Positions 3,642-64,000 of a stretch of 64,000 nucleotides of DNA are shown piece after piece; positions within the stretch are counted from its first letter, which is position 1; each line of letters opens with the position of its first letter. This DNA is from Candidatus Pelagisphaera phototrophica. GTDB lineage: Bacteria; Verrucomicrobiota; Verrucomicrobiia; Opitutales; Opitutaceae. The notes beneath the pieces were generated by a model that was not told the origin of the DNA, searched no databases, and saw only the letters and a list, made by a program, of their open reading frames with translations. The stretch lies in contig NZ_CP076039.1 in the NCBI RefSeq assembly GCF_014529625.1, forward strand, positions 372,001 through 436,000, given 5' to 3'. The position numbers and the translations under genes are program-made.

Positions 3642-3687
3642 GGAGGTGGCTGTTTAGTTAGTCCGACTCTCGACTTTTTAGGTTCTG

Positions 3688-6395: not shown

Positions 6396-7625
6396 CTATT
6401 GTTCGATGAATTCTTTCTGGGAGCCGAACCGGGCTTTTAGGCGGAGTCCCTGTAAGCGGATAAATCCTGTCGCATCGTCCGGATTGTAGTCGCTTTGCAC
6501 CCCTTCCATCGAAGCAATGTCCTCATTGTAAAGTGAATAAGGAGACTTACGTCCGACGGTAGTTACATTGCCCTTGTATAGTTTTAGCCGTACGGTACCG
6601 GTTACGCTTTTTTGGCTGTTGTCGATAAAGGCCTGGAGCGCTTCACGCTCGGGCGCATACCAGAACCCATTGTATATAAGTTCTGCATACTTGGGTATTA
6701 AACTATCACGCAGGTGCTCTAAATCTCGGTCCATAGTGATAGACTCGATCTGTTTGTGGCCCATCATCAGAATCGTTCCACCAGGCGTTTCATAAACGCC
6801 TCGACTTTTCATACCAACAAATCGGTTCTCCACTATATCCACTCTTCCGATACCGTGCTTTCCTGCTAGAGAGTTTAAAGTTTTTAGTACTTTCGCAGAG
6901 CTGAGCGATTGTCCATTGACCGCCACGCAATCACCCTTTTCGAAATCAAGTTCAACGTACTCGGCTTCGTTCGGAGCATCTTCAGGATCGACAGACAATT
7001 TGTACATTGCCTTATTTTCCTTCGTGGTTGGGTCGAACCAGGGATCCTCCAAAATACCCGCCTCGTAGGAGATGTGGAGAAGGTTACGATCCATCGAGTA
7101 GGGTTTTGAGGCAGAAGCTTCCACGTTAATGCCGTTTTCTGCGCAATAGGAAATCATCTCGCTTCGGCCTGGAAATGCTTTGCGGAAAACTTCCATTCGC
7201 CAAGGCGAAATCGTCTGTAAATCGGGGGCCAACGCAGCATAGGCCAGTTCGAACCGCACTTGATCGTTGCCTTTACCAGTGGCGCCATGGGCAAGTGCGT
7301 CCGCTCCGACTTTGCGGGCGAGGTCAATATGAGCTTTACCGATTAAGGGCCGCGCAATGGAGGTGCCCAAAAAATACTGTCCCTCATAGATTGCGTTGGC
7401 CCGTATTATTGGGTAGATAAAATCTGACGCAAACTCTTCAACGAGATCGAGTGTATAGTGCTCGGAGGCACCTGTAGCCCTGGATTTCTCCTCAAGACCC
7501 TCTAGCTCCTCTTCCTGCCCAACGTCAGCAGCAAAAGTGACAACCTCCGCGTTGTAATGATCTTTTAACCACCGAACGAGCACCGAAGTGTCTAGTCCGC
7601 CTGAGTATGCGAGTGCTATCTTCAT
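6396..7625 (-). CDS. argG: argininosuccinate synthase
   Basis: Joins citrulline and aspartate with ATP to form argininosuccinate, the seventh step of arginine synthesis. The 409-residue protein begins with the N-type ATP pyrophosphatase loop [17 protein letters not shown] and carries [18 protein letters not shown], both hallmarks of ArgG. It is the last gene of the minus-strand series argC-J-B-D-F-G, with about 90 bases separating it from argF. argH is not in the window. Confidence 0.97.
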
Positions 7626-7718
7626 TTTTGATACGATTGAATGGTTAACCGCGAATTACACGAATAAATTTAGAAATATCCAACTCATACCTATCCGTTC
7701 TATAATTGTATGGGAAAT

Positions 7719-8663
7719 TTAAGCCCGGACCCCTTGGGCGAGCACCGCCATAATCGCCTTTTGGGTATGGAGCCGGTTTTCAGCTTGGTCAAAGATGATT
7801 GACTTGGAACCGTAGAGGACGTCTTCCTTCACCTCCATACCCTTATACGCTGGAAGGTCGTGCATAAATAACGCGTTTGGCTGTCCTAGTTTCATCAGAT
7901 CCGAAGTGACCGAATAGGGACTCATTACAGCGATCCGTTCAGTTGATTCTTCCTCCTGTCCCATGCTTACCCAGGTGTCCGTATATAGCACATCCGCATC
8001 GCGAGCGGCGGCCTCAGGATCGTTTGTGAAGCGATAGGTTGGCGTATAACCACTCTCGGCGAGTATTTTCTTGATCTCCGATCCCGGCTCATAACCGTCT
8101 GGCCCAGCGAGTACTAATTCCATCCCAAAAAGCGCTGCTCCTAGAATCCAGGAATTTGCAATATTGTTGGCCGTATCACCAAAGTACGCCATCTTCTTAC
8201 CTTTTAGAGACTCTAGATGGTTTGTTCCGTCGGACCATCGTTCCGCCATTGAGAACGCATCGGTATAGGTCTGGCAGGGATGAAGAAAATCGGTCAATGC
8301 ATTGATCACAGGAATCGATCCCATTTTCGAAAGTTCTTCCAGTTCGCTTTGTTCGAAGGTGCGTACAATGAGTCCATGGACAAAACGCGACAGCACATTT
8401 GCGGTATCATAAACGGACTCACCACGACCCAATTGGATATCGTTCTTGTTTAGAAATATAGGATGCCCTCCCAGTTCATGAATACCCACGTCGAAGGAAA
8501 CTCGTGTTCGAGTACTCGATTTTGAGAAAATCATCGCCCAAGTCTGACCTTTAAGCGAAGGAGGCGTGTGACGGCCTCGACCCTTTTTAAAGCTTTGAGC
8601 CAGTGCTAATACTTCGCTTGCTTGATGAGGAGCGAAATCTGTTTCTTTCAAAAAATGTGCCAT
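7719..8663 (-). CDS. argF: ornithine carbamoyltransferase
   Basis: Transfers the carbamoyl group of carbamoyl phosphate to ornithine, giving citrulline. Seen: the carbamoyl-phosphate loop SKSSTRTRVSF (about residues 47-57), DFLHPCQTYTD and the Asp-Thr-Trp segment DTWVSMGQEEE. The ATG at 8663 is chosen because MAHFLKETDF is a typical N-terminus; an upstream start at 8678 adds five residues. The ornithine-binding motif, usually His-Cys-Leu-Pro, reads FMHDLPAYKG, with Asp in the Cys position. An acetyl- or succinylornithine carbamoyltransferase is less likely, since argJ already yields free ornithine. Confidence 0.9.
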   Translation of the reverse strand: MAHFLKETDFAPHQASEVLALAQSFKKGRGRHTPPSLKGQTWAMIFSKSSTRTRVSFDVGIHELGGHPIFLNKNDIQLGRGESVYDTANVLSRFVHGLIVRTFEQSELEELSKMGSIPVINALTDFLHPCQTYTDAFSMAERWSDGTNHLESLKGKKMAYFGDTANNIANSWILGAALFGMELVLAGPDGYEPGSEIKKILAESGYTPTYRFTNDPEAAARDADVLYTDTWVSMGQEEESTERIAVMSPYSVTSDLMKLGQPNALFMHDLPAYKGMEVKEDVLYGSKSIIFDQAENRLHTQKAIMAVLAQGVRA

Positions 8664-8706
8664 AATTGGTTTTTCCAACTTAATTGTATTAACGATGCTG
8701 CGTCAC

Positions 8707-9936
8707 CTATACTGCCGCGTTATTTGCCGTTGCTCTTTCCCTTACCGCTGCGCTAAATATTTCCAGAGCCTTATCGAAATCCTGTTTCGTCGCCGTCAAT
8801 GCAGGAAGAAAGCGAACGACATCAGCCCCCGCCGGAGGAAGGATTAGTCCACCTTCTCTTAATTTGGCAACCACATCAAAAGACGAATCCGCAATCTGGA
8901 TTCCGATCATGAATCCCGCTCCACGAATATCCAGAATATACTCAGGAAGTTCCGTCTTGAGTTCATTCAAACGCTTAAGTACGTATTCACTATTGGTTAC
9001 GACGTTTTGAAGGAGATTCTCCTCTTCGATCGTTTCCAGAACTGCGAGGGACGCAGCGGCGATGAGTGGAGTACCTCCAAAAGTAGTGCCATGCGTCCCT
9101 GGCTGGAAAAGCTCCGCGTGCGGATCACGGATCCAAACCGCCCCGATGGGAACCCCACCACCCAGACCTTTCGCCATTCCAATTGCGTCTGGCCTAATAC
9201 CCGCTTTCTCAAAGGCAAAGAAGTGACCGGTTCTTCCCACGCCACATTGTACCTCATCAATTAAAAGCAGCACTCCACGCTCATCGCAAAGATTCCGCAA
9301 GCCCTGTAAGAATTCAATGGTTGCAGGGAAAATGCCTCCTTCTCCCTGTATTGTTTCTATAAATACAGCTGCCGTTTCTGAGTCAATCGCCGCGGTGAAG
9401 CTCTCAAGATTGTTAAGTTCGGCAAAAACGAAGCCTTCAACAAGAGGTGCGAAACCTTGCTGGATTTTCACTTTTGGCGTAGCGCTCATTCCACCAAAAG
9501 TACGGCCATGGAAGGCATTTTCCGCACAAACAATTTTGTATTGCTTGCCTTCCAATCCGGCATTCTGGCAACCGTAGAGCCGTGCTAATTTTATTAGCGT
9601 TTCATTCGCTTCAGCTCCACTGTTGCAAAAGAACACTTTTCCCTTTCCACCCGCTTTTTCATTCAGCTTTGCGGCCAGAATCGCCTGGTTCTGATTGCGA
9701 TACAAATTGCTAACACACAACAGTTCCGCCGCTTGTTCCTGGATTGCGGTAACCAACTTTGGGTGACAATGCCCGATACTCGTCACTGCAATTCCAGAGC
9801 AGAAATCCAAATATTCCTTCCCTGTGTCATCCCATAGTTGAAGCCCACGACCACGCACGTACGTTACGGGCGGTAATCCGTAATTGCCAAGTACATTATC
9901 GAAATAGAGCTCCTCAGTGTTCGTATTTTCTTTCAT
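8707..9936 (-). CDS. argD: acetylornithine aminotransferase
   Basis: A PLP-dependent class III aminotransferase converting N-acetylglutamate semialdehyde to N-acetylornithine with glutamate as donor. The start is set at ATG 9936 (MKENTNTEELYFDNVLGNYG); the frame stays open upstream to 10050 but those residues are unlike the family and overlap argB. Motifs: GSGAEAN-like NSGAEANETLIKLAR, the PLP Asp region LLIDEVQCGVGRTG and the Schiff-base Lys in GMAKGLGGGVP. Length after trimming is 409 residues, as usual. It lies between argB and argF. Confidence 0.95.
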   Translation of the reverse strand: MKENTNTEELYFDNVLGNYGLPPVTYVRGRGLQLWDDTGKEYLDFCSGIAVTSIGHCHPKLVTAIQEQAAELLCVSNLYRNQNQAILAAKLNEKAGGKGKVFFCNSGAEANETLIKLARLYGCQNAGLEGKQYKIVCAENAFHGRTFGGMSATPKVKIQQGFAPLVEGFVFAELNNLESFTAAIDSETAAVFIETIQGEGGIFPATIEFLQGLRNLCDERGVLLLIDEVQCGVGRTGHFFAFEKAGIRPDAIGMAKGLGGGVPIGAVWIRDPHAELFQPGTHGTTFGGTPLIAAASLAVLETIEEENLLQNVVTNSEYVLKRLNELKTELPEYILDIRGAGFMIGIQIADSSFDVVAKLREGGLILPPAGADVVRFLPALTATKQDFDKALEIFSAAVRERATANNAAV

Positions 9937-48621: not shown

Positions 48622-49407
48622 ATGCAAAATGAACTAAATAAAATTTTAAGAGATTCGTTCTTCTATTCAAAGTCTGAGTTTACTACCAAATATCGAGATT
48701 CGGTTATAGGCGGGCTCTGGATCGTACTAAATCCTATCCTTATGTTAGGATTGTATGTCTTGGTATTTGGATATATCTTTGGGGGAAGCTTTAGTCCTTC
48801 AGGTACTAAAATGGAGTATGGAATAGGGATATATGTTGGCCTTTCTCTTTATGGTTTAATTGGTGAAACTCTGAGTTCGGCACCAAACCTAATATTGTCG
48901 AAAAGCGGATTGGTTGGTAAGATATCGTTCCCGTTGGAGATTATTCCTCTGACAAGCCTGTTACAATCAATATACAGATTTTTAATATCGATCTTTATTT
49001 CTCTCATTTTTGCGATTTTTTATAAATTGGAAATTAGCCCAATTTTGTTTATTTTGCCGATAATAGTGGTACCAGTATTATTATTAGCCTGTGGAATAGC
49101 CTTTTTGTTTTCTGCACTAGGTGTTTTTTTTAGAGATCTTCAGAATGTTACTAATTTGCTCAGTAGGGGATTATTTTTCGCTTCCGCGATATTCTATCCA
49201 ATAAATTCAATACCGGAGGATATTTTTAATTATTTAAAATATAATCCAGTTGTTCTGGCTATTGATTCTGCTCGAAATCTTATATTATGGGGGGAAATCC
49301 CAAATTATAACCAACTAATTTATTTATATTGTTTTTCTATCGTAACTTTTATCGTCGGTCTTACAGTGTATCGTAATCTCAAAAAAGCATTCGCAGATGT
49401 CATTTAA
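48622..49407 (+). CDS. ABC-2 type polysaccharide exporter permease (Wzm-like)
   Basis: A 261-residue membrane protein of about six helices. FTTKYRDSVIGGLWIVLNPI at the N-terminus and FFASAIFYPINSIPE near the C-terminus are typical of O-antigen and teichoic-acid exporters. With the ATPase that overlaps its end by 11 bases it should move lipid-linked glycan across the inner membrane. Base composition is far more AT-rich than the adjacent atpC, suggesting acquisition. Confidence 0.9.
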   Translation: MQNELNKILRDSFFYSKSEFTTKYRDSVIGGLWIVLNPILMLGLYVLVFGYIFGGSFSPSGTKMEYGIGIYVGLSLYGLIGETLSSAPNLILSKSGLVGKISFPLEIIPLTSLLQSIYRFLISIFISLIFAIFYKLEISPILFILPIIVVPVLLLACGIAFLFSALGVFFRDLQNVTNLLSRGLFFASAIFYPINSIPEDIFNYLKYNPVVLAIDSARNLILWGEIPNYNQLIYLYCFSIVTFIVGLTVYRNLKKAFADVI

Positions 49408-50779
49408 AGAGGCCAGAATACTAATAAAAATAGAAAACGTAAGCAAAGTTTATGAAATATGGAAGTCTCCTGCTTCAAGACTTTTAGTACCCTTTTATAA
49501 ATGGATAACAGAGAGGATAGCTTCTGGTAGACTTTCTGAAATGCTAAATAATCGCATTAATCAACAGTTAGAGCACTTTACTGCACTTTCATCAATTAAC
49601 TTTGAGTTGAGACGAGGTCAGGCAATCGGAATAGTCGGTCGCAATGGTGCAGGTAAGTCAACGTTGCTAAAAATCATTACAGGTGTTTTGCGGCCAACTA
49701 CTGGGACTGTGGTAAAAAAGGGTAGAATCAATGCACTCTTGGAGTTGGGCACTGGCTTCAATTCTGACCTAACAGGAATTGAAAATATCTATCTTAATGG
49801 TTCATTGATCGGTATCAAGAAAGCGGAGTTAGATGAGAAATTGGGTGACATTGAGAGGTTCGCTGAAATCGGGAATTTTATTAACCAACCGGTAAAAAGA
49901 TATTCGTCTGGAATGAAAATGCGTTTAGCTTTTGCTGTTACAACCTGCTTAGATCCTGATGTTCTTATCATCGATGAGGCTCTTGCTGTGGGCGACGACG
50001 CGTTTAGAAGAAAGTGCTATTCAAGAATTGAAGATTTGAGGGCTAAAGGTTGTGCACTTTTATTTGTTTCCCATGCAGCTGGAACAGTAATTCAACTTTG
50101 TGATGCTGCGATACTCTTGTCTGCGGGTAAGATGGTGCAGAAAGGTTCTCCAAAATTGGTAATCGGTACCCATCAAAGACTGATGAATGCTTCCAAGGAA
50201 GAGGAAGGTAATATAATAGAGAAAATTGAATCCGAAAATTTGGATTCACAAGAAACATTCGATAGTAAGCAGAAGCAGAAAACAGTTTCGCTTGAGGGTT
50301 TTTATGATCGGAATTTGACCTCGAAAAGCAAAGTAGAATTTGAGCCAAAAGGAGCTATAATTGAAAATATCCGCTTAACTGATTTTGAGAACAACAAACT
50401 CAACGTTTTGGAAAAAGGTAAACGGTATAGATTAAATTATGAAGTTTCATTTTGCGAAAATTGCAAATCTGTTAGATTCAGTATGCTCATCAAAACAACT
50501 GAAGGATTTGCGTTAGGCGGAATGGTTACCGATCAAATTAGCAAAGGGATAAGAAGCGTAAAAAAAGGAACACGTATATTTTTAGATTTTTATTTTCGTT
50601 GTAATTTAACACCTGGAACCTATTTTATTAACGCTGGTGTGAAGGGATTATTCGAAGAGACTGAAATATTTCATCATAGAATTCTTGACGCTTTAGTTTT
50701 CAGGGTTAGCGAAGAAGATAACAATGTTATAACTTCATTTGTAGATTTTGATATTAACTGTAAAGTTTCAACCTTGTAG
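49397..50779 (+). CDS. O-antigen ABC exporter ATPase with C-terminal glycan-binding domain (Wzt-like)
   Basis: The 460 residues hold an ATPase (about 1-260; Walker A GIVGRNGAGKSTLLK, signature RYSSGMKMRLAFAV, Walker B DVLIIDEALAVGDD) and an extra C-terminal domain (about 310-450) like Wzt_C, which recognises the capped non-reducing end of the glycan. Such two-part ATPases couple chain-end modification to export. A terminal methyl or sulfate cap could come from the methyltransferase or sulfotransferase encoded nearby (inference). Confidence 0.9.
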   Translation: MSFKEARILIKIENVSKVYEIWKSPASRLLVPFYKWITERIASGRLSEMLNNRINQQLEHFTALSSINFELRRGQAIGIVGRNGAGKSTLLKIITGVLRPTTGTVVKKGRINALLELGTGFNSDLTGIENIYLNGSLIGIKKAELDEKLGDIERFAEIGNFINQPVKRYSSGMKMRLAFAVTTCLDPDVLIIDEALAVGDDAFRRKCYSRIEDLRAKGCALLFVSHAAGTVIQLCDAAILLSAGKMVQKGSPKLVIGTHQRLMNASKEEEGNIIEKIESENLDSQETFDSKQKQKTVSLEGFYDRNLTSKSKVEFEPKGAIIENIRLTDFENNKLNVLEKGKRYRLNYEVSFCENCKSVRFSMLIKTTEGFALGGMVTDQISKGIRSVKKGTRIFLDFYFRCNLTPGTYFINAGVKGLFEETEIFHHRILDALVFRVSEEDNNVITSFVDFDINCKVSTL

Positions 50780-51271
50780 GCTGATTCTTAAACGTTTCAG
50801 ATTTTGACCTACTCCTTGTATCTGAGTTCCGCTAGAAGTGAAGGGCCTCTTTCGTCGTATTTATTGGACTGGTGGCTGATTCTAAAGTAAACATAAAGGG
50901 ATTCTAAATCGCAAATTTGGCAGAGATTATTGTTTGCATGGTTTTTGTTAGAGATTGCAGATCGATCTGACCTGATTGTGGCTGGGGCTCCAGTCATACA
51001 CTAATTGACGAATTTGGTTTAAGCTATTCGAACGGATGTCCTTTGAGTGTTTCTGGGCTAATCCATTCTGTAGAATTATCTCCACAACAATTTGTCAGCC
51101 GAAACGAGAATATACTATACAAAGTTAGCAATAGTCCAGCTCTCCATGGCTAATCCTGCGAATTCAAGTCGGACACGGGATTGACCTACCTTGCCGAGAA
51201 GATCGGCGAGGTAGTTTAGGAACTGGGGCACTTTACGCTCAGAATTCTATTAGTTAGTTTCGACTTACAGG
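50780..51271. other. gene-free spacer with one hairpin
   Basis: No coding sequence is supported. A 12-pair stem with one T-G wobble, CTACCTTGCCGA and TCGGCGAGGTAG, lies at 51,186-51,214 with a five-base loop. There is no T-run directly behind it. It may terminate the exporter operon imperfectly or be a mobile-element relic. Confidence 0.4.
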
Positions 51272-51330
51272 GTAAGCGTTAAAAAATCGACGCTCTTTCA
51301 AAATACTCATTATTTGTCTAGATTGTCTTT

Positions 51331-51465
51331 GTGAACAAGGGCAAAGGCAAGCGATACAGCAAAGAGGAGTGCGACGAGCTACTGCAGCTTTTCGTCGAAA
51401 GCGGATACAGTTCCTTGCGCTTCTGTAAAGAGATGGGGCTGTGCTGCGGCACATTAAAGCACTAG
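51331..51465 (+). pseudogene. IS66 tnpA-like fragment
   Basis: A GTG-started frame of 44 codons encoding a helix-turn-helix-like start (MNKGKGKRYSKEECDELLQL, then FCKEMGLCCGTLKH) and a premature stop. It is like the first protein of IS66 or related transposase N-termini. Confidence 0.5.
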
Positions 51466-51708
51466 CTTTTCAGTGAAACCGGTGGAAATGTAGAGATTCA
51501 TCCGCGAGCACCTTGCCTCGGAGGAAGGCTTCGGGGACGGGCAGGCCAAGGCCTTCGCGTGGAAAAAGCGTCCAACAATCACGCTCGAACAAGGTGCATA
51601 TTGAGGATCATAAGACACGAAAAGCTTCCGGCGGGCGAGTTCGACTCCGCCAACGGCTACTCTCTCTTCCACTGGGACTATCTCTCGGCCTATCTTGAAA
51701 AAGCCAGG

Positions 51709-51930
51709 TGGAGATAGACAACAACGGAATGGAGAGCTCGATCCGTCCTTCGGCAAAAAGAACTGGCTCGTTGTTGGCCACCCGGAAGCGGGCAACCGCG
51801 CGCCGGTTCTATACTTATCAGTTACCTGCAACTTGACGTCGCGTCGTTCGATTACCTGACACCGCCTCTCAGGACAGACTTGAGTAAGCTTTCGCAAGAC
51901 GAGCTTTCTAAGCTCACGTCATCGGCATAG
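51709..51930 (+). pseudogene. IS66 transposase (tnpC) C-terminal fragment, frameshifted
   Basis: VEIDNNGMESSIRP, then in another frame GKKNWLVVGHPEAGNRAPVL, and further on DVASFDYLTPPLRTDLSKLS. This is the order of the IS66 DDE transposase end, split by at least two frameshifts. The normal ID-NN-x-E catalytic region is recognisable but broken. Confidence 0.7.
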
Positions 51931-52137
51931 GCAAAATCAAGGAGGCAGATTTAGTACCGCTTACACTGAGTCTAGAGGACAGGCCGATCAGTGAGCAAGG
52001 ACGACGAAAGCCCAGAGTTTTTGGACCTAATAAACATGATTTTTTGCTCAACCCTTGCCTGAGGAAACGACCGGTTTCTCGAGCTTGATCTTCTTGAATG
52101 TATCTATGGTCCAGCGTCTGGTTGGTGACTTAGTGCT

Positions 52138-52323
52138 TCAGGCAGAGTGTTTTCCCTTGCTCGCGCCACCATCCGGTGTGGACTGGTTCTTTTGGTAGGA
52201 GCATTTTTCTGTTGAAAATCTGTGTTTGTGAAGCAGCTCCCTGAACGATACGCAGTTCTCCGCCTCCCGAAGGATGCGGATGATCTCCTCTTCCTTGTAG
52301 CGTTTGCCTTTTCTTCCGCTCAT
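52138..52323 (-). pseudogene. IS3-family orfA remnant
   Basis: The first 35 residues (MSGRKGKRYKEEEIIRILRE, then AENCVSFRELLHKH) match the helix-turn-helix start of IS3-type OrfA proteins; the remaining 26 lose similarity, implying a frameshift. No intact orfB follows on this strand. A GGCACTGTTTA motif occurs just outside its start (about 52,352) and again near 63,131, perhaps element ends. Confidence 0.6.
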
Positions 52324-52566
52324 ATTGATGATCGAAATTCTCTCAATCTAAATGGCACTGTTTAAGGGGAGCAGGTCAAACCAGTTAAGATTCAGCAGCC
52401 TTCAACTGATACCCTAGAATAGAGTAATTTATCAGACAAAGGTTAAAAAAGGCTAATCTAGAAAAGGTGGAACTTGACAGCTTTCGCCAAGATAGTCTGA
52501 TCAAGGTAGTTAGTAACTAAGCAATTCCTCAATCGTACAATCTTAAAGACTAATCAAATAATATAA

Positions 52567-55500
52567 ATGCAGTTAATTGTCCTTGGAATGCATCGATCGG
52601 GCACGTCAGCTTTAGGTCGCATATTGAATATGATGGGTGCCTATTTTGGTGATGAAGGTAGTGGTACCGGTGCCAACGAGGAGAATCCCAAGGGATTTTG
52701 GGAAAGACGAGATGTGCGCGAGCTAAACGATGACATTTTGAATTCTGCAGATTGTGATTGGAATCGGATTAGTGCCTTTGAAGTAGACAAACTTAGCGCA
52801 TCCGTCAAAAAATCGTTTAAAACTCGGTCTGCAAAGATCATTCTAGAAATGGATGGCCATAGGCCTTGGTTTTTAAAGGAACCAAGACTTTGTCTCCTCT
52901 TTGAGCTGTGGAAAGATCAGTTAGAAATTCCGATAGTTATTCATATTTATAGAAACCCGATCGAAGTAGCACAAAGCTTATACAAAAGAAACAAGATTCC
53001 AAATAGTACCGGAATTGCATTATGGGAAAAATATAATTCGACCGCATTTCAAGCTTCTATAGGCAAGCCTCGAATCATCATATCTCATAGAAATTTGATG
53101 ATCGATCCGATAGCTGAAACTTCAAAATTATATAATCAGCTTAATGAATTTGGAGTTCCGAATCTAAGAATGCCTTCGAAGAGAGAACTTTCGTCTTTTA
53201 TTCAAAAAGATTTATATAGGCAAAAATTTTCAGATAAGGATCTGCCACTTTTCCTGACACGACAACAAACGCGTCTCTTTAGGGAGATCAAAAGTGAGAA
53301 AATACTTCATCACAAAAAGCTCCCAGAGGTTTCAACGGCAACGGTAAAGAATCTACTACAATACGAAGAATCCCTTCAGCAACAAGAGTATGAGTTGTCT
53401 GAGTATTTGAACAAAAATCAGAAGTCTATAATTGTGCAATCCAATGATAGGATAGCCTCTCTGAAAATCGAGTTAACCAAAAAGGAAAGCCAAAGGAAAC
53501 TGATAAAAGGTGAACTCGACCAGTCACGTAGGGACCATGGGGCCCTCAAGCGTGAATTCAAGGCGCTCGGCGAAAAGGAATCGAAAGCCAGGATTGAAAT
53601 GAAGCAGGTTTTCGGAAAGGAACTTGAATCGCTCAAGGGCAAGTTGGGGGAGAAGGAGGTTCAACGGGAACTGATAAAAGGTGAGCTCGACCAGTCACGT
53701 AGGGACCATGGGGCCCTCAAGCGTGAATTCAAGGCGCTCGGCGAAAAGGAATCGAAAGCCAGGATTGAAATGAAGCAGGTTTTCGGAAAGGAACTTGAAT
53801 CGCTCAAGGGCAAGTTGGGGGAGAAGGAGGTTCAACGGAAACTGATAAAAGGTGAACTCGACCAGTCACGTAGGGACCATGGGGCCCTCAAGCGTGAATT
53901 CAAGGCGCTCGGCGAAAAGGAATCGAAAGCCAGGATTGAAATGAAGCAGGTGTTCGAAAAGGAACTAGAATTGCTCAAGGGCAAGTTGGGGGAGAAGGAG
54001 GTTCAACGGAAACTGATAAAAGGTGAACTCGACCAGTCACGTAGGGACCATGGGGCCCTCAAGCGTGAATTCAAGGCGCTCGGCGAAAAGGAATCGAAAG
54101 CCAGGATTGAAATGAAGCAGGTTTTCGAAAAGGAACTAGAATTGCTCAAGGGCAAGTTGGGGGAGAAGGAGGGTCAAAGAAAACTGATAAAAGAGGCGAC
54201 TGAAAGAGAGTTTATATATAAAGAACGTATCAATAAACTAACTGCGATAAATGCGGCAAACGAAGCCGAAAAAATGCAATCCCTCAAAAGGATTGAAGAC
54301 ATTGAAAAGATCTTAGCAATAGAAAGAGAAAAGGTTATTGAAATTGAGGCACTCAGCGAAAAGGAACTTGAATCGCTCAAGGGCAAGTTGGGGGAGAAGG
54401 AGGGTCAAAGAAAACTGATAAAAGGGGAGCTCGACTTGTTTAGAATTAACCTAGATCTAGTCGAACAAAATGCAAAAGATACTATAAAAGAGGCGACTGA
54501 AAGAGAGTTTATATATAAAGAACGTATCAATAAACTAACTGCGATAAATGCGGCAAACGAAGCCGAAAAAATGCATACCCTCAGAAAGATTGAAGACATT
54601 GAAAAGATCTTAGCAATAGAAAGAGAAAAAGTTAATGAAATTGAGGCACTCAGCGGAAAGGAACTTGAATCACTCAAGGGCAAGTTGGGGGAGAAGGAGG
54701 GTCAAATAAAACTGATAAAAGGGGAGCTCGACTTGTTTAGAATTAACCTAGATCTAGTCGAACAAAATGCAAAAGATACTATAAAAGAGGCGACTGAAAG
54801 AGAGTTTATATATAAAGAACGTATCAATAAACTCACTGCGATAAATGCGGCAAACGAAGCCGAAAAAATGAATACCCTCATAAAGATTGAAGGCATTGAA
54901 AAGACCTTAGCAATAGAAAGAGAAAAAGTTATTGAAATTGGAGAGAGGTATTCTAACCAAGAAGACTATTTTAAACTTAGAATCGATGAATTTAAACTGA
55001 AACAGTTACACGATTTGGAAACTTCTAATAGAATTAAAAATAGATTAGAATTTCAAATAAAAAGACAAAATCTCCATTCAGAGTTTTTGCGTAATTTTTC
55101 AATAAATTTAGAGCAATTTGTTACTATTCAAAAGGAATATTGCAAAAAATTATTAGACGAAATTGAAAAACTAGCCAATTCCAATTGGAAGAAATATAGT
55201 CAATTCATTTACATAGCAATCAGTAAGTTTTTCAAAAGTTTTGAATCGCAAAATCCAAATGATTACATAGATAATTTGAAAGAAAATTATCTCAAAATAG
55301 TTTCTTGTCAAAATCTTTCTCTTCAATCTATACAGGAACTTCTCAAAGAAAATATACATTCTACTAGTATAAATTATATAAATGAGTATGGAAAAATAAG
55401 CCTAGTACCTATTAATGACTATTGCATAGACACTAGTATGATGAAACTCGATATCGTTGTTTGCGTGCACAATGCCCTTGAAGACGTGAAAAATTGTTTA

Positions 55501-57408
55501 GAGTCGATTAAGAAACATACACATTTAAATTATTTCTTATATATAGTAGATGACGGTTCCGACATTGATACACAGAAGTACCTTCAAAAATATAGTAGGC
55601 AAAACACACAGACTATTCTAATTACAAATGAAAAACCAATTGGCTATACAAAGTCAGCTAACATTGGATTAAGAGCTAGCACTGCTGATTATGTTATTTT
55701 ATTAAATAGTGATACCATTGTAACCCCAAATTGGGGTAGTAAGTTAATACAGTGTGGAGAAAGAGATACTAGTATTGGAATCATCGGACCACTATCCAAC
55801 GCTGCAAGTTGGCAATCGATACCAGAACGCTATAGCCCGGAAGGTGATTGGATGGTTAACGAAATCCCATCTAATATGAAAATTGAAGAAATGGGTAGAT
55901 TGGTATCAAATATTTCCAAAAGAGAGTATCCAAAAGTTGCTTTGTTGAATGGTTTCTGTTTCGCAATTAAACGGCGAGTTATTGAAAGCATTGGTTTCTT
56001 TGATGAAGAGTCGTTTCCACAAGGATACGGGGAGGAAAATGACTATTGCTTTAGAGCAGTCGCGGCTGGGTATCAACTTGCTATCGCAGACGATACTTAT
56101 ATATTTCACGCAAAATCCAAAAGTTTTACACATGAAGGTAGGAGGCGGCTGGCAAAAGAAGGTGGAGAAAAGCTAAAAGAGCTACACGGAAAAGAGAGTA
56201 TTGATTCCGCAGTAAAGACTCTCCGCGAATCACGTACTTTGGGCAATATGCGAAAAGCAGTACGGTTTTCAATAAATTTTGAGGAAGATTCTTTCGACAA
56301 TGGTTTCATAAATACTAAATTAAGAGTTCTATTCCTCTTGCCTGTAAGTGGTGGTGGTGGCGGTGTTCACTCTATAGTTCAAGAAACTATTGGTATCAGA
56401 AAGCTCGGTAGATACGCTAGAATTGCTGTTCCATTAAAACATAAAGTTAAGTACCAATTGGCCTATCCGAACGAATGGCGAGAGGTCTTTCATTTCTATG
56501 ATTCGAAAAACGAATTATTCTCTTACGCGTGTAATTTTAACGTTGTTGTAGCTACTATCTTTACTTCAGTTAAATTACTTTCAGAAATAATAGATCGTTA
56601 TTCTAATATAATACCTGCCTACTATATACAAGATTATGAACCTTGGATTGTTGACAAAAAGAGCGAATTATACAACGAAGCACTAAATTCCTACAATTTG
56701 GTTTCTCCAAATAACTGCTTTGCAAAAACAAAGTGGCTCTGTGATACATTGATGAAGAAGCATAACGTCAAAGTTCACAAGATTAAACCTAGTGTTGATC
56801 ATAATATTTATTATTGTGCGAGATCAAAACAAGATTCTAAAAATAAAACAATTAACATATGCGCGATGATTAGGCCCAAAACACCACGACGAAATGCAGA
56901 AATGACAATGAAGGTGTTAAGTAAGGTAAAGAATAGCAACCCTGAATTTATTAACATACTTATATTTGGGTGTGATGAGGAGGATCCGTTTTTTAAAAAT
57001 TGTCATCGAAATTTCGATTATTCTAATTACGGACACATTACCCGGGAAGGAGTTAGTAAAATTCTTAGAAAGAGTCACATTTTTTTAGATCTTTCAGTCT
57101 ACCAAGCTTTTGGTCGTACTGGGCTCGAAGCCATGGCTTGCGGATGCGTTCCAGTTTTACCCAAGTCAGGGGGCGTTTACGAATATGCGATCAGTCGAGT
57201 AAACGCAGCAATTGTAGATACAAATGAGGGAAGTGAAAATGAGATAATCGACAATATAAATTCATTGTTAAAGGATCGATCTAAACTATCAGACTATCGA
57301 GAAGAAGGTATAAAGACTGCTAAACGTTTTACAATAGAAGAATCTGCATGGTCTGAAATAGCCTTTTTCGAAAAAATAACTAGAAATCCAAGGACTATAA
57401 ATAAATGA
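52567..57408 (+). CDS. giant fusion: sulfotransferase, repeat coiled coil, GT2 and GT4 glycosyltransferases
   Basis: A single open frame of 1,613 residues. Residues 1-250 are a P-loop sulfotransferase (LGMHRSGTSALGRILNMMGA; HRNLMIDP as the second PAPS contact). Residues about 270-960 are charged coiled coil, mostly tandem repeats (309-536 and 543-794). Residues about 959-1215 are a GT-A family 2 domain (LDIVVCVHNALEDV; LLNSDTIVTPNW). Residues about 1251-1605 are a GT-B family 4 domain (FLLPVSGGGGGVHSI; AFGRTGLEAMACGCVPVLP). It probably builds and sulfates a surface glycan as one tethered unit at the membrane face. AT-rich, flanked by insertion-sequence debris and pseudogenes. Confidence 0.9.
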   Translation: MQLIVLGMHRSGTSALGRILNMMGAYFGDEGSGTGANEENPKGFWERRDVRELNDDILNSADCDWNRISAFEVDKLSASVKKSFKTRSAKIILEMDGHRPWFLKEPRLCLLFELWKDQLEIPIVIHIYRNPIEVAQSLYKRNKIPNSTGIALWEKYNSTAFQASIGKPRIIISHRNLMIDPIAETSKLYNQLNEFGVPNLRMPSKRELSSFIQKDLYRQKFSDKDLPLFLTRQQTRLFREIKSEKILHHKKLPEVSTATVKNLLQYEESLQQQEYELSEYLNKNQKSIIVQSNDRIASLKIELTKKESQRKLIKGELDQSRRDHGALKREFKALGEKESKARIEMKQVFGKELESLKGKLGEKEVQRELIKGELDQSRRDHGALKREFKALGEKESKARIEMKQVFGKELESLKGKLGEKEVQRKLIKGELDQSRRDHGALKREFKALGEKESKARIEMKQVFEKELELLKGKLGEKEVQRKLIKGELDQSRRDHGALKREFKALGEKESKARIEMKQVFEKELELLKGKLGEKEGQRKLIKEATEREFIYKERINKLTAINAANEAEKMQSLKRIEDIEKILAIEREKVIEIEALSEKELESLKGKLGEKEGQRKLIKGELDLFRINLDLVEQNAKDTIKEATEREFIYKERINKLTAINAANEAEKMHTLRKIEDIEKILAIEREKVNEIEALSGKELESLKGKLGEKEGQIKLIKGELDLFRINLDLVEQNAKDTIKEATEREFIYKERINKLTAINAANEAEKMNTLIKIEGIEKTLAIEREKVIEIGERYSNQEDYFKLRIDEFKLKQLHDLETSNRIKNRLEFQIKRQNLHSEFLRNFSINLEQFVTIQKEYCKKLLDEIEKLANSNWKKYSQFIYIAISKFFKSFESQNPNDYIDNLKENYLKIVSCQNLSLQSIQELLKENIHSTSINYINEYGKISLVPINDYCIDTSMMKLDIVVCVHNALEDVKNCLESIKKHTHLNYFLYIVDDGSDIDTQKYLQKYSRQNTQTILITNEKPIGYTKSANIGLRASTADYVILLNSDTIVTPNWGSKLIQCGERDTSIGIIGPLSNAASWQSIPERYSPEGDWMVNEIPSNMKIEEMGRLVSNISKREYPKVALLNGFCFAIKRRVIESIGFFDEESFPQGYGEENDYCFRAVAAGYQLAIADDTYIFHAKSKSFTHEGRRRLAKEGGEKLKELHGKESIDSAVKTLRESRTLGNMRKAVRFSINFEEDSFDNGFINTKLRVLFLLPVSGGGGGVHSIVQETIGIRKLGRYARIAVPLKHKVKYQLAYPNEWREVFHFYDSKNELFSYACNFNVVVATIFTSVKLLSEIIDRYSNIIPAYYIQDYEPWIVDKKSELYNEALNSYNLVSPNNCFAKTKWLCDTLMKKHNVKVHKIKPSVDHNIYYCARSKQDSKNKTINICAMIRPKTPRRNAEMTMKVLSKVKNSNPEFINILIFGCDEEDPFFKNCHRNFDYSNYGHITREGVSKILRKSHIFLDLSVYQAFGRTGLEAMACGCVPVLPKSGGVYEYAISRVNAAIVDTNEGSENEIIDNINSLLKDRSKLSDYREEGIKTAKRFTIEESAWSEIAFFEKITRNPRTINK
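53491..54174 (+). repeat. four tandem 171-bp repeats in the fusion gene
   Basis: Units begin at 53,491, 53,662, 53,833 and 54,004, each encoding 57 residues that start QRKLIKGELDQSRRDHGALK and end near LKGKLGEKE. Copies differ by only a few bases; 1-2 share TTCGGAAAGGAACTTGAATC and 3-4 share TTCGAAAAGGAACTAGAATT. The frame is kept throughout. Confidence 0.95.
54193..54950 (+). repeat. two and a half tandem 297-bp repeats in the fusion gene
   Basis: Units begin at 54,193, 54,490 and 54,787 (the third is partial). Each encodes 99 residues from EATEREFIYKERINKLTAIN, and each complete unit contains a shortened copy of the 57-residue unit (ELESLKGKLGEKEGQ), so the second repeat type arose by nesting. 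DNA identity between units is very high. Confidence 0.93.
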
Positions 57409-59242: not shown

Positions 59243-59947
59243 CTAATAAGACTTGTAAAACCTCTTATCTAAATTGAAAGTATCAGATACGGCTTTTGTG
59301 GATTCACCATCAATATCGATCAAAACAAAGGTTTCAGCGTATACTGGTTGGTCGAACATTAATGATAATTTCTTGCTATGTTTTTTGTGACTCCAATGGT
59401 GCTGGTCTACTGGTGAGTCAATATTGTGAATTAGATTACTGTCGCTTGACCGGACGGGACCAATCCCGTAAATAGAAAATGACGAAATTTTACCTTTTAA
59501 ACAAAGCGGATTAAGTAGGTTTGTAAACTCTAACATAGTCATATGATTTGGATGGCCCTTCCAATTTGACCAGTAAAATTTAAATCCATTTTGAAAAAGG
59601 TATGGATCTGCGTCAAAAAAAGGCTGCCTAATTATTACAAATTCTCGTGAGACTTTTACGGCTTGCTGGACAATTTTTGTAAAGTCGAATATACTGGGAA
59701 TGTGTTCTGAGAAATGGTGCATTATCGTAAACCGAACTTTTGAACTGATATCGATATTCGTTATATCGCATACTTTCGCATTAAAACCAGATTTGATTGT
59801 CTGTTCAACCTTGTTGGGATCTATATCTAAACCAAGTCCTTTGCCCTCAGCGTTAAAGGTCTTACCGTAGAGTTTCAAAGATCCACCGGAGCTGCATCCA
59901 AAATCTAAAAATTCAAATTCTGTAGTATCAATGGTATGGCTTAACAT
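59243..59947 (-). CDS. class I SAM-dependent methyltransferase
   Basis: A 234-residue protein. Motif I reads FEFLDFGCSSGGSLKLYG near the N-terminus, followed by LGLDIDPNKVEQ (acidic residue binding the ribose) and CDITNIDISSKVRFTIMHHF. The substrate is unknown; its place in the glycan locus suggests sugar or chain-end methylation. It stands between decayed genes on the opposite strand from the giant fusion, yet the frame is intact, which implies selection or recent arrival. Confidence 0.7.
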   Translation of the reverse strand: MLSHTIDTTEFEFLDFGCSSGGSLKLYGKTFNAEGKGLGLDIDPNKVEQTIKSGFNAKVCDITNIDISSKVRFTIMHHFSEHIPSIFDFTKIVQQAVKVSREFVIIRQPFFDADPYLFQNGFKFYWSNWKGHPNHMTMLEFTNLLNPLCLKGKISSFSIYGIGPVRSSDSNLIHNIDSPVDQHHWSHKKHSKKLSLMFDQPVYAETFVLIDIDGESTKAVSDTFNLDKRFYKSY

Positions 59948-61008: not shown

Positions 61009-63078
61009 CTAACTTGGTTTTGTTGTTTTACTCATAATAAAGTTCAAATAATCATCTGCCATAGAAAAATCCGATTTGAAATTAAGAGACAAAATATTTT
61101 TAATCTTTATTTCATAATCTCCAGGACAGGAACGAATTTCAATAAGTTTATCTAACCAAGTTTTAGCGTCGAACTGTTCGACAGTCCAGCTACAATTATC
61201 TTTTCTAGAACGTAGATAGGGTTCACCCAAGCGGCTGTGCAATATGGGTGTTCCGCACAACAATGATTCAGAATACACGTTGCTATAGGTCTCTGCCCAA
61301 ATTGATGGTAATAAGGTAACTAGGGGCCTTAAATTTCTATAGATTTTAGACAACTCAAGTCTTTCATATGATCCGTGAATATGGGTGTTAGGTAGAGTCT
61401 TTGGATTAACATCTGGAAAACCGCCAAAAATATGAAAGACGAAATTTGTACTAATTTCGTGATTTCTAAGAATAATTTCTTCAATAAGATCAAGACCTTT
61501 ATCTATATTGATATTCCCCAAAATAACGACGTTGTTCACTAGTCGCTCATTGAAACAAAGCGGTTTTTCCTTTTGCAAATCAGTCCCATTATTAATCACT
61601 GTGTTGGGTTTTTCTCTTAATTCGGGATAAATCGAATCAATCAAATTCTTACAATAAATACTATTAAATATGAAACCTTTAATATATGTAAAAGATTCTT
61701 TAACCTTTTGCCTCCAAACGGACACAAAAACCTTTTTTAGTGGAGAATGTAAGATGATATTATTTTCTGTTTTGCAATCTTCCGTTAATGAATTACATTT
61801 GCCGCAGCAAAATTCTGTTGATTCATTTATTAGAGTGTATTTCGGGCATATTATATAATAGTCGTGCACGGAAAAATATGTGCTAATCCCATAATCATAT
61901 AGCAATTTTAGAAGACTAGGGTTCCAATAAATGAAATGCCTAACTAGGCAGATAGATGGTGTAATCAGGCCTATAATATCCTTGAGGGCAAATTGCCTTT
62001 CCGTGTGATCAAAATTTTCGACTCTCCAAGGGGTCTGAAAAATCACGCTCTTAATAAATACCCTATCATTTTCATCTAATCGATAGAGATTCCAATGGTG
62101 AATTTCTGTCATTAGAATATAGCAATTAAAATGTATTGCTAAATGTTTTGATAAAAAATGGGTAGTCATTTGTATACCCCCCTTGCTGTCTGGGATAACT
62201 ATTAAAATCGAGGGTTTTTCTTCATCGGAACCTGAATCGTTGATATTAATAAAGGAACGCTGTTTATTGAAGCTATTTCTAATAAGATCAATAATACCAT
62301 CTCTGCTAAAAAGGTCAACTTTTTGAAAATATGATGGATATAGATCACTAATTATTTTATTCGAAACTAACAATAAATCAGGTTTATCAACTCCATGAGA
62401 ACCAGCATCCCGATGATATATTATTGTTTTGTAGTCTAGGTAATGGAATAATCCAAGTTTTGATAATTTTTGACAGAAATCTACCTCTGAACCATAGCCA
62501 ACAGGAAAACGAATTTCATCAAAACAGTTAACTTGTGCGATTGCTTGCATTGTTATAAGCATGCAACTTCCGTGACCCGTTGGAATGGTTGGGTATTTCT
62601 CGAGTTTTAGCTTATCGAGATAGTGTTGCCTAATATTTCGTTCATGAGGGTCGTCGACGTAAGAGCGATCCGTTATTGATGGGAAAGAAAAAGCACCTGA
62701 ATTATCAAAAAAAGGGGTGATGGTAGCTACGTTCTCGCAAGAGGACATACAGTTGATTAAGTTTTTATACCAATTATCAGACACTTCAACATCTGAGTTT
62801 AATATAATAGTATGGTTATTCGCTTTTTGGAGAATTTGGTTAACGGATTTTGTGTAGCCGAGATTTTTTTTGTTAGAAATGGTAACAAGATTTTTCCACG
62901 TTGACCTGAATTCTTCAATAGTTTTTTCTATTTCCGGATCAGTACTAGCGTCATCAACCAAAATAACACGGACAATCTTGGGGGTATATTGCAGGATAGA
63001 ATGAAGACATAAGACAAGATAGTCGTTTGCATTATAAATAGGAATCAGAATATCTGGATAGGCTTTTATTGCGTGCAT
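61009..63078 (-). CDS. GT2-GT4 two-domain glycosyltransferase
   Basis: A 689-residue protein with an N-terminal GT-A family 2 domain (about 8-235: DILIPIYNANDYLVLCLHSI; VILVDDASTDPEIE; IILNSDVEVSDNW) and a C-terminal GT-B family 4 domain (about 290-680: ILIVIPDSKGGIQMTTHFL; ESLLCGTPILHSRLGEP). The order GT2 then GT4 repeats that of the giant fusion, without sulfotransferase or coiled coil. It likely adds two successive sugars to a surface glycan. No membrane helix is evident. Confidence 0.88.
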   Translation of the reverse strand: MHAIKAYPDILIPIYNANDYLVLCLHSILQYTPKIVRVILVDDASTDPEIEKTIEEFRSTWKNLVTISNKKNLGYTKSVNQILQKANNHTIILNSDVEVSDNWYKNLINCMSSCENVATITPFFDNSGAFSFPSITDRSYVDDPHERNIRQHYLDKLKLEKYPTIPTGHGSCMLITMQAIAQVNCFDEIRFPVGYGSEVDFCQKLSKLGLFHYLDYKTIIYHRDAGSHGVDKPDLLLVSNKIISDLYPSYFQKVDLFSRDGIIDLIRNSFNKQRSFININDSGSDEEKPSILIVIPDSKGGIQMTTHFLSKHLAIHFNCYILMTEIHHWNLYRLDENDRVFIKSVIFQTPWRVENFDHTERQFALKDIIGLITPSICLVRHFIYWNPSLLKLLYDYGISTYFSVHDYYIICPKYTLINESTEFCCGKCNSLTEDCKTENNIILHSPLKKVFVSVWRQKVKESFTYIKGFIFNSIYCKNLIDSIYPELREKPNTVINNGTDLQKEKPLCFNERLVNNVVILGNINIDKGLDLIEEIILRNHEISTNFVFHIFGGFPDVNPKTLPNTHIHGSYERLELSKIYRNLRPLVTLLPSIWAETYSNVYSESLLCGTPILHSRLGEPYLRSRKDNCSWTVEQFDAKTWLDKLIEIRSCPGDYEIKIKNILSLNFKSDFSMADDYLNFIMSKTTKPS

Positions 63079-63802: not shown

Positions 63803-64000
63803 TTGAATAAAGAACCATTAGTATCAATCATAGTGGTCGACTTCAATGGTCAGCACTTTTGGAATAGGTTGCTAGATTCCTTATCGGATCAGACATTCTC
63901 TAATTTTGAGCTGATAGTGGTTGATAATGGGGGTCATTTAGAATTGCCAGAGAGCCACGATGGAATTCGAATCAAAGTCCTGAATCGAAAGGAAAACCTT
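63803..64000 (+). CDS. glycosyltransferase family 2, N-terminal part (cut by window end)
   Basis: From TTG 63803 the frame is open to the window edge (66 codons): EPLVSIIVVDFNGQHFWNRL, then FSNFELIVVDNGGHLELP. This is the nucleotide-binding start of GT2 enzymes, though the usual Asn/Asp pair differs slightly. An in-frame stop lies at 63,785, so the start is within about 18 bases. Confidence 0.65.
   Translation, partial: MNKEPLVSIIVVDFNGQHFWNRLLDSLSDQTFSNFELIVVDNGGHLELPESHDGIRIKVLNRKENL

Follow-up and report, generated by a model that had tools for sequence, protein, structure and literature searches.

A single reading frame in the genome of Candidatus Pelagisphaera phototrophica joins a sulfotransferase, a long coiled coil and two glycosyltransferases (GT2 and GT4) in one protein of 1,613 aa. 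The frame occupies positions 52567–57408 (+) of the window, the whole 64,000-nt stretch of DNA that was analyzed, and runs from ATG to stop with 0 internal stops. A Pfam scan matches Sulfotransfer_3 at residues 3–193, Glycos_transf_2 at 963–1139 and Glycos_transf_1 at 1423–1583. With the frame intact and all three enzyme modules matched, the fusion described in a sequence-only reading of this DNA is borne out. As judged from the sequence, its layout matches a published class of terminator-coil-polymerase proteins, with a sulfotransferase replacing the terminator. About an even chance is given to the reading that the protein supplies a sulfate cap, a ruler and a built-in polymerase for a Wzm/Wzt-dependent surface polysaccharide. 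In this model, the C-terminal GT2 and GT4 would lengthen a lipid-linked chain at the membrane, and the coiled coil would oligomerize and keep the N-terminal sulfotransferase apart from them. The non-reducing end of a long-enough chain would then reach the sulfotransferase and be sulfated, growth would stop, and the Wzt_C domain of the exporter would recognize the sulfated end so that the chain is exported.

The sulfotransferase module spans residues 1 to about 250 (52567–53316, +) according to Pfam and an AlphaFold2 model, and its Sulfotransfer_3 match scores 31.9 bits against a cut-off of 27. Across 31 aligned rows, one of them the window protein, the PAPS motif GMHRSGTS (residues 7–14) is invariant except for T13, and R129 and S137 of RNPIEVAQS (residues 129–137) are invariant; the PAPS-binding residues, whose loss had been raised as a possibility, are thus present. 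These motifs presumably bind the 5′ and 3′ phosphates. AlphaFold2 models this part at high confidence, its fold resembles solved sulfotransferases (VIA Z 15.4 to 5wrj_C, rmsd 4.3, 207 aligned), and a sequence search of solved structures with the alignment returned 2z6v alone (E 0.0042). With both phosphate motifs and the fold, the N-terminal module is predicted to be an active PAPS-dependent sulfotransferase, and it would be the modifying enzyme of the fusion, putatively acting at the chain end. No methyltransferase or kinase of the WbdD type was found in the N-terminal region, where Sulfotransfer_3 is the sole Pfam match, and the GT99 N-terminal domain (PF21912) is absent from the protein in a Pfam scan at E 0.1.

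Both glycosyltransferases lie C-terminal to the coil. The GT2 module (residues 963–1139; 55453–55983, +) matches Glycos_transf_2 with E 1.4e-20, and its catalytic motifs, DDGS (995–998) and NSDT (1047–1050) within the module and EEND (1156–1159) just beyond it, are conserved in an 11-row alignment. The reading of a capping enzyme with its own polymerase is backed by this conservation, together with that of the PAPS motifs and the presence in the genome of a gene for APS kinase, which is required for PAPS. The donor half of the GT4 module (residues 1423–1583; 56833–57315, +) matches Glycos_transf_1 with E 2.4e-14. Retaining GT4 enzymes usually carry an EX7E motif; here, the first Glu is replaced by Gln1513 (YQAFGRTGLEAMACG) and the second is kept as Glu1521, and Gln also occupies the first position in the consensus of the 11 aligned rows. 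The glycosyltransferase catalytic residues, likewise named as a point to verify, are therefore retained in GT2 and only in part in GT4. Since the predicted GT4 fold resembles that of GT-B enzymes, MshA among them, and the Pfam match holds, the view that this module works like a GT4 still stands. Compared with ten homologues, the glycosyltransferase part shows 39–46% identity to nine and 30% to the remaining one. Polymerization by this fused GT2-GT4 pair would be in keeping with the class.

The coiled-coil spacer comprises 643 residues without proline (254–896; 53326–55254, +), and its features agree with the rod that had been placed between the sulfotransferase and the glycosyltransferases. 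Hydrophobic periodicity over residues 290–800 peaks at a period of 3.54 with a power of 2.44; in the control of 500 shuffles, scanned on a coarser period grid, the highest power per shuffle averages 0.96 and reaches 2.54 at most, so that at least one shuffle exceeds the peak of the coil. In the AlphaFold2 model, the sulfotransferase runs into a single helix (residues 257–416) in which confidence is kept only to about residue 345. A DNA repeat search identified two tandem repeats, one of 171 bp (57 aa) × 4.1 with 97% matches (53491–54193, +) and one of 297 bp (99 aa) × 2.5 with 96% matches (54187–54940, +), and their exact copy number may still reflect an assembly error. Tandem repeats occur in 18 of 82 sulfotransferase frames versus 12 of 418 other frames. 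Among 43 repeat periods, in a list of which many rows overlap, 39 correspond to whole residue numbers that can be built up from 7 and 11, and the coil register therefore tends to be kept; the other four are 30, 31, 45 and 157 bases. A candidate amphipathic, membrane-binding helix follows the coil (residues 873–890; 55183–55236, +), with a hydrophobic moment of 0.47–0.49 and a mean hydrophobicity of 0.09–0.19, values that carry no computed background and fall in a region of low AlphaFold2 confidence.

The neighboring exporter with a Wzt_C domain, also read from the sequence, is confirmed. A Wzm-type ABC-2 permease of 261 aa (48622–49407, +; Pfam ABC2_membrane E 4.7e-15) is followed by a Wzt ATPase (49397–50779, +; ABC_tran E 8.7e-23) whose C-terminal Wzt_C carbohydrate-binding domain covers residues 314–450 (E 1.2e-25). 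The fusion gene lies 1.8 kb downstream of the two. The interval between wzt and the fusion gene holds probable insertion-sequence debris (51331–52323, no strand assigned), namely two HTH_Tnp_1-like fragments at 51331–51462 (+) and 52141–52323 (−) with 15.1 and 12.8 bits, both below the cut-off of 24.1, and this separation speaks against the reading of a sulfate cap with ruler and polymerase. GC content drops to 0.35 near the fusion gene. Farther along the window lie a methyltransferase-like protein (59243–59947, −; weak match, below cut-off), the second GT2 (+GT4-like) protein of the locus with 689 aa (61009–63078, −; Pfam GT2 E 5.2e-19, Glyco_trans_1_4 24.6 bits, cut-off 27) and the start of a further GT2 protein (63803–64000, +), which the sequence past the window continues and which is followed there by two GDP-mannose 4,6-dehydratase-like genes and an epimerase.

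The closest analogues are WbbB of Klebsiella pneumoniae O12 and ORF6 of K. pneumoniae O7, in which a single chain unites terminator, coil and polymerase according to the accessible part of the source (PMC11231755). As there described, WbbB resembles the fusion in its N-terminal terminator, coil and two C-terminal glycosyltransferases, and its exporter Wzt has a carbohydrate-binding module as in the window; ORF6 likewise has a modifying enzyme, a coil and two glycosyltransferase modules, but the enzyme is a methyltransferase-kinase giving a methyl-phosphate cap, and the chain has an extra CBM and two GT2 instead of GT2 and GT4 (PMC11231755). The WbbB terminator, a GT99, adds Kdo, whereas the fusion has a sulfotransferase fold and is known from sequence alone. 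The glycosyltransferase families of WbbB also differ from GT2 and GT4. Like the class, the window has an extended coil, fused glycosyltransferase modules and an exporter Wzt with a carbohydrate-binding domain, and the equivalence of its module order to the WbbB and ORF6 chains backs the cap-and-ruler reading.

The analogy to WbdD of E. coli O9a/O8 drawn from the sequence is also apt. WbdD carries a catalytic head on a long coil whose length sets O-antigen length (accessible part of PMC5082667), and a membrane-associated amphipathic helix after the coil and a Wzt with a carbohydrate-binding module are described as well (accessible part of PMC11231755). Unlike in the fusion, the head is a methyltransferase-kinase and the polymerase WbdA is recruited rather than fused. 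At a helix rise of 0.1485 nm per residue, the 643 residues would span roughly 95 nm as one straight helix, compared to about 20 nm in WbdD, and fold-back would shorten the rod; it could be several times longer than that of WbdD. A sulfotransferase domain adjoining Wzt is also known from Aeromonas salmonicida ORF19, encoded between wzt and wbbB; in contrast to the fusion, it has 216 aa, with a separate WbbB and neither coil nor glycosyltransferase reported in the accessible part of the source (PMC4483657). A search of the open-licence literature found no paper in which sulfotransferase, coiled coil and Wzt occur together with either O-antigen or glycosyltransferase, which is not proof of absence.

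The fusion does not stand alone. The same order in one frame is found at ten of 81 other sulfotransferase loci (a count that leaves out homologues L012–L015) in three other phyla, or four with that of the window, which rules out a one-off fusion. An assembly join, a concern raised earlier, is unlikely because the genome is one 4.09-Mb contig and the order recurs in independent assemblies. In the window's phylum, 15 of 68 other Wzt loci encode a coil protein within 1 kb downstream of Wzt, carrying a methyltransferase (seven, two of FkbM type and one at the C-terminal end), a sulfotransferase (three), GT99 (two, found by Pfam in L229 and L234), a kinase-like module assigned by eye (one) or glycosyltransferases only (two). 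GT99 is a known Kdo terminator family (accessible part of PMC11231755), and the shared position of GT99, methyltransferase and sulfotransferase coil proteins supports a terminator role; the presence of terminator-type coil proteins in this slot backs the cap-and-ruler reading. Further backing comes from L010, L011 and L016, where the sulfotransferase frame either overlaps that of wzt(Wzt_C) or starts 25 bp after its end, and from another version in the window's own genus (L194, G048), which is one of the three sulfotransferase cases just counted. Here, a different Sulfotransfer_3 protein lies directly downstream of wzm-wzt(Wzt_C) and continues into 381 proline-free residues; unlike the fusion, it belongs to another sulfotransferase lineage (15 bits to the model of the window's lineage) and its chain has no glycosyltransferase.

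In the Wzt_C tree, the window Wzt pairs with L010 (support 98/87). A sulfotransferase lies within 3 kb of Wzt at four of seven further loci of this clade versus two of 61 others (p 0.0006). This enrichment backs the reading, but the statistic is to some extent post hoc: close reading of the loci had first brought three of the four clade cases to light. The value becomes p 0.0013 with one sub-threshold case added and p 0.0075 with one genus also collapsed. Because the in-house sulfotransferase model used for the uniform scan had three seeds only, all from loci already known to be positive (three own-genome sequences did not pass the motif filter and were left out of the seeds), the count was repeated in 61 genomes with two Pfam families; Pfam matches alone give 3/7 versus 2/61 (p 0.006) or versus 3/61 (p 0.012). 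This recount does not pick up L210, which scores 153 bits with the in-house model, and it includes a further sub-threshold case, G015 C23, located about 260 bp from a Wzt. Two of the four clade cases, from one genus, have the sulfotransferase fused to Wzt itself, and the L183 case is a marginal Sulfotransfer_2 match at the cut-off (22.0 bits). On the Wzt_C tree, the label “sulfotransferase next” requires 7 changes versus 9.6 when shuffled (2 of 500 shuffles as low), with L181 and L183 labeled negative and a sulfotransferase later found in both.

The expectation that the coil accompanies the chain-end reader as a rule is not supported. Near sulfotransferase homologues, 24 of 34 Wzts extend no more than about 21 residues past the ATPase domain and therefore have no room for a reader domain, and Wzt_C is not supported as a fixed sulfotransferase partner. 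Nor can coil length serve as a marker of the reader: the proline-free run after the sulfotransferase is no different in 10 loci with the reader and 16 without it (p 0.98; 16 of 24 short-Wzt loci used, leaving out L047, L058 and the GT2-first rows L082, L088, L089, L093, L094 and L095). Both results weaken the cap-and-ruler reading, as do reader-linked sulfotransferases with hardly any proline-free run (L185, 31 residues; L182, 51; L210, 72) and the fetched flanks of the full-fusion loci L021–L024, in which no Wzt was found. The short Wzts and the lack of a coil-length difference favor instead an unlikely alternative, in which a tailoring sulfotransferase would place sulfate at many positions of the growing chain, the coil would serve as a scaffold that assembles subunits and provides reach rather than as a ruler, and Wzt_C would read something else. 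The spacer between sulfotransferase and GT2 also speaks for it, ranging from 183 to 679 residues in ten other GT2-GT4 fusions and reaching 722 in the window, but tailoring leaves unexplained both the slot shared with GT99 and methyltransferase coil proteins and the enrichment in one Wzt_C clade. On the sulfotransferase tree, the reader label is clustered (3 changes versus a shuffled mean of 10.8; 0 of 500 shuffles as low), with four of the 13 reader-positive rows (L018, L019, L026, L080) labeled by extension length only, where Pfam calls no Wzt_C, and with near relatives clustering anyway.

If sulfate caps and stops the chain, its length might still be set by enzyme ratio or processivity, with a coil that only spaces or multimerizes the modules. 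The very variable, often repetitive coil and its near absence from some terminator-slot sulfotransferases fit this improbable reading, whereas WbdD coil insertions and truncations do alter chain length (accessible part of PMC5082667) and the repeat periods tend to keep the register. It is very unlikely that the sulfotransferase fold is inactive or acts on another acceptor (adapter sugar, lipid or protein) and that the frame arose as a by-product of modules being shuffled in a decaying locus. The adjoining weak transposase-like debris, the GC drop and the replaced Glu of GT4 point that way, as does the sulfotransferase-domain gene of A. salmonicida, since the O antigen there reportedly showed no such residue (accessible part of PMC4483657); set against this are the invariant PAPS motifs, the intact frame, the identity of the glycosyltransferase part to its homologues and a module order common to four phyla.

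A wider proposal that builds on the cap-and-ruler reading, in which the rod may measure the glycan chain, is put forward tentatively and at somewhat less than even probability. Sulfate would join methyl, (methyl)phosphate and Kdo as another class of cap that licenses export; at least two sulfotransferase lineages would have joined coils beside Wzt, one Wzt_C clade would have evolved to read sulfated ends, and some lineages, including this gene, would adjust chain length through tandem duplications of coil units that preserve the register. To our knowledge, little is known about the assembly of sulfated bacterial surface glycans. If true, the proposal would extend chain-termination chemistry and make testable what Wzt_C domains can read, with the near-identical 57- and 99-residue repeats as natural steps for tests of the ruler model; glycoengineering would also gain a useful part in a single protein that both polymerizes and sulfates. 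A phage origin of the fusion was rejected, with one weak match in 50,697 phage records. Separately, distant relatives of the sulfotransferase were observed on 53 viral contigs.

The gene at 52567–57408 (+) of the window encodes a real, intact and conserved multi-enzyme chain of 1,613 codons without a stop. Sulfotransfer_3 (residues 3–193), Glycos_transf_2 (963–1139) and Glycos_transf_1 (1423–1583) all score above their Pfam cut-offs, in agreement with the sequence-only reading, which had placed several modules in one frame. The start codon is supported because M1 is nearly invariant across homologues in a 31-row sulfotransferase alignment that includes the window. The predicted PAPS-binding residues G7, M8, H9, R10, S11, G12, S14, R129 and S137 are invariant in the same alignment and would hold the 5' and 3' phosphates. 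An AlphaFold2 model of the N-terminal part, built on this alignment, is confident for the sulfotransferase (pLDDT 95–98 in most ten-residue blocks, lowest 80), which passes into a helix from residue 257 and has a fold like that of tyrosylprotein sulfotransferases and of the curacin sulfotransferase domain; confidence drops beyond about residue 345, the other alignment rows ending before there.

At the C-terminal end, the GT2 motifs VDDGS (994–998; D996, G997 and S998 invariant), NSDT (1047–1050) and EEND (1156–1159) are conserved across 11 rows. The GT4 module is modeled with a GT-B fold, and the first position of its EX7E motif is Gln1513, a glutamine in the alignment consensus too. The PAPS-binding motifs of the sulfotransferase and the catalytic motifs of the GT2 module are retained, with the GT4 motif departing at this position. 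A second model (residues 840–1613) is mostly confident for GT2 and GT4 and low at 840–955; because the model is unsure there, it is hydrophobic moment by itself that suggests a candidate membrane helix at 873–890.

The long coiled-coil spacer proposed between sulfotransferase and glycosyltransferases is borne out: residues 254–896 contain no proline, and hydrophobic residues at 290–800 recur every 3.54 residues, a value that falls between heptad (3.5) and hendecad (3.67) spacing, with a peak power of 2.44 compared to a shuffled mean of 0.96 and a maximum of 2.54 among 500 shuffles on a coarser period grid. Past the sulfotransferase domain, the fusion continues without proline for longer than any other of the 86 sulfotransferase proteins compared. 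Its coil holds two tandem arrays, of 57-aa and 99-aa units; copies 2–4 of the former differ from the first at 1, 2 and 3 of 57 residues and at 3 to 5 of 171 bases. Tandem repeats are enriched in sulfotransferase frames, at 18 of 82 (the window's included) vs. 12 of 418 other frames (p 2e-8), the controls being frames of at least 400 aa from both strands of the same loci, not all of which are real genes. The repeat lies outside the coil in at least two of the 18 (loci L054 and L083 of other genomes). Of 43 repeat rows, taken from sulfotransferase frames and 14 other frames near Wzt, 39 have a period of an integer number of residues that can be composed of 7s and 11s, and four do not; for comparison, such sums make up 57% of the integers 12–60; no probability is attached to this count because the rows overlap.

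A scan of 84,980 species genomes found at least 549 sulfotransferase relatives. The top 80 of these, together with L010 (from a genome of the window's family) and L011, give 81 other loci, several cut by contig ends. One of the 80, L084 (Pelagicoccus mobilis, Verrucomicrobiota), encodes a protein identical to that of L010, which places the window in Verrucomicrobiota. Sulfotransferase, GT2 and GT4 share one frame in that order at 10 of these 81 loci (L017, L021, L022, L023, L024, L029, L039, L048, L049, and L060). They represent Planctomycetota, Acidobacteriota and Pseudomonadota, or four phyla counting the window's; L021–L024 are closely related to one another, and L048 shows little coil. From sulfotransferase to GT2 there are 183 to 679 residues in the ten, against 722 in the window. 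Within the window's family, 7 of 150 genomes, its own among them, carry a homologue at E 1e-5. L016, the closest by sulfotransferase among the matches listed (58% over 240 columns), encodes a sulfotransferase–coil–GT2 protein whose frame follows the end of a wzt with Wzt_C by 25 bp. In Xanthomonad relatives (L081–L083, L088–L090, L093–L095) the modules stand the other way round, with GT2 ahead of the sulfotransferase in a single frame and hardly any coil, or none; their Wzt lacks an extension in all six loci with a Wzt in reach. Distant sulfotransferase relatives are also encoded on 53 viral contigs (L096–L148).

Upstream of the fusion lie wzm (48622–49407) and wzt (49397–50779), the latter with the Wzt_C domain that had been noted as a reader in the adjoining exporter. 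About 1.8 kb (50780–52566) separate wzt from the fusion, with no convincing gene and two sub-threshold transposase-like fragments, and the original operon seems to have been interrupted here. Genes on the 3' side encode a weakly matching methyltransferase, a GT2 protein whose GT4-like part is sub-threshold, and another GT2; next come two genes like GDP-mannose 4,6-dehydratase and one for an epimerase, and beyond them genes of unrelated type, among them those for a peptidase and a helicase. GC content falls from about 0.48 before wzm to 0.35–0.43 from wzm onward. The genome has one APS kinase match.

The position downstream of Wzt was surveyed within the window's phylum by searches for Wzt_C (387 genomes, matches in 29) and the Wzt ATPase domain (288 genomes, matches in 156), ranked by likeness to the Wzt_C of sulfotransferase loci and to the window's Wzt (top of the list), respectively, and both thus biased towards the window. 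Of 69 loci fetched, the 68 with a Wzt other than the window's were read, and 15 carry a coil protein in this slot (a frame of at least 250 aa with at least 60 coil-like residues by an ad hoc simple rule, at most 1 kb downstream). These proteins bear a sulfotransferase (L185, L194, L210), a methyltransferase (L192, L224, L226, L227, and L223 at the C-terminal end), an FkbM methyltransferase (L195, L196), GT99 (L229, L234), a kinase-like protein (L205, by eye; Pfam none) or GT modules only (L214, and L218 via a custom GT2 model only); the Pfam scan of L185, L224 and L226 covered the N-terminal part. The L210 sulfotransferase scores 153 bits with a custom model and has no Pfam match at E 0.001.

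Established terminators include methyltransferases and the WbbB module that adds Kdo (PMC11231755; PMC9445017). Because the same slot holds these types, the sulfotransferase–coil protein is most simply read as another terminator. The fusion works most like WbbB (K. pneumoniae O12) and O7 ORF6, its sulfotransferase occupying their terminator position, and is probably a member of the coiled-coil terminator class. Sulfation would then be end-specific, the coil may serve as a ruler of chain length and the sulfate would be recognized. No description of a sulfate terminator was found in the open-licence literature searched.

Beside Wzt_C, L202 encodes a polysaccharide pyruvyltransferase–coil–GT4 protein (573–3803, +), possibly a pyruvate-capping terminator; its Wzt is cut, placing it outside the 68. 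L194, from the window's genus, joins a sulfotransferase of a different lineage to a coil (7214–9280, −) in a frame overlapping the wzt end; by eye the coil has about four internal repeats, and the DNA repeat finder lists none. As this congener's sulfotransferase is of another lineage, the sulfotransferase–coil–Wzt combination appears to have had more than one origin. A domain of about 130 residues before the L210 coil (7648–8046, −; like 'DIFFSNTPDGFVESK'), with no Pfam match at E 1 in L210, is seen by eye also in L196, L224, L226 and perhaps L195, and is perhaps carbohydrate-binding.

The module order recurs in other genomes; co-occurrence with Wzt_C as a rule is not supported. Counting the window's, 34 sulfotransferase loci have a Wzt within the stretch that was fetched. 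In 24 of them the Wzt ends at about the end of its ATPase domain; in 10 it extends by more than 120 residues, and only six of these 10 are called Wzt_C by Pfam. Coil length does not differ between 16 reader-negative and 10 reader-positive loci (medians 172.5 vs. 182.5, p 0.98). Given the Wzts without extension and the equal coil lengths, the sulfotransferase–coil combination is not tied to a chain-end reader; in reader-less systems it either caps unread or has another task. A sulfotransferase-domain gene adjoins wzt in A. salmonicida, where the authors' account of the O antigen reports no such residue (PMC4483657), and a review presents sulfotransferases near Microcystis glycan genes as possible modifiers (PMC4390846).

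Among readers themselves, the window's Wzt falls in a clade of 12 (support 98/97) in a tree of 74 Wzt C-terminal regions. Five members known beforehand through their sulfotransferase (window, L010, L011, L016, L085) were left out of the count. A sulfotransferase lies within 3 kb of Wzt at four of the seven other clade loci (L181, L182, L183, L210) vs. two of the 61 remaining (L185, L194; p 0.0006), 59 of which are in the tree, two Wzts having no or too short an extension. The value becomes 0.0013 with a sub-threshold case (genome G015, contig C23) added and 0.0075 when L181 and L182, of one genus, are also counted once; Pfam hits alone give 3/7 vs. 2/61 (p 0.006) or vs. 3/61 (p 0.012), and L183 is a marginal Sulfotransfer_2 match. 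The enrichment is supportive and not clean, because three of the four positives were spotted by close reading before the uniform Pfam search. Clade members without a sulfotransferase in this range are L179, L180 and L184 (a 4.5-kb contig), and frames adjoining the first two resemble O-acetylation genes by eye. One frame of about 1,030 aa in L181 (7557–10655, −) and in L182 (7621–10707, −), whose two genomes belong to a single genus, fuses Wzt ATPase and Wzt_C with a GT2-like domain and a sulfotransferase. Outside the examined loci, another Wzt with a Sulfotransfer_3 match about 2 kb off occurs in genome G020 (contig C1, near 910105 and 912464).
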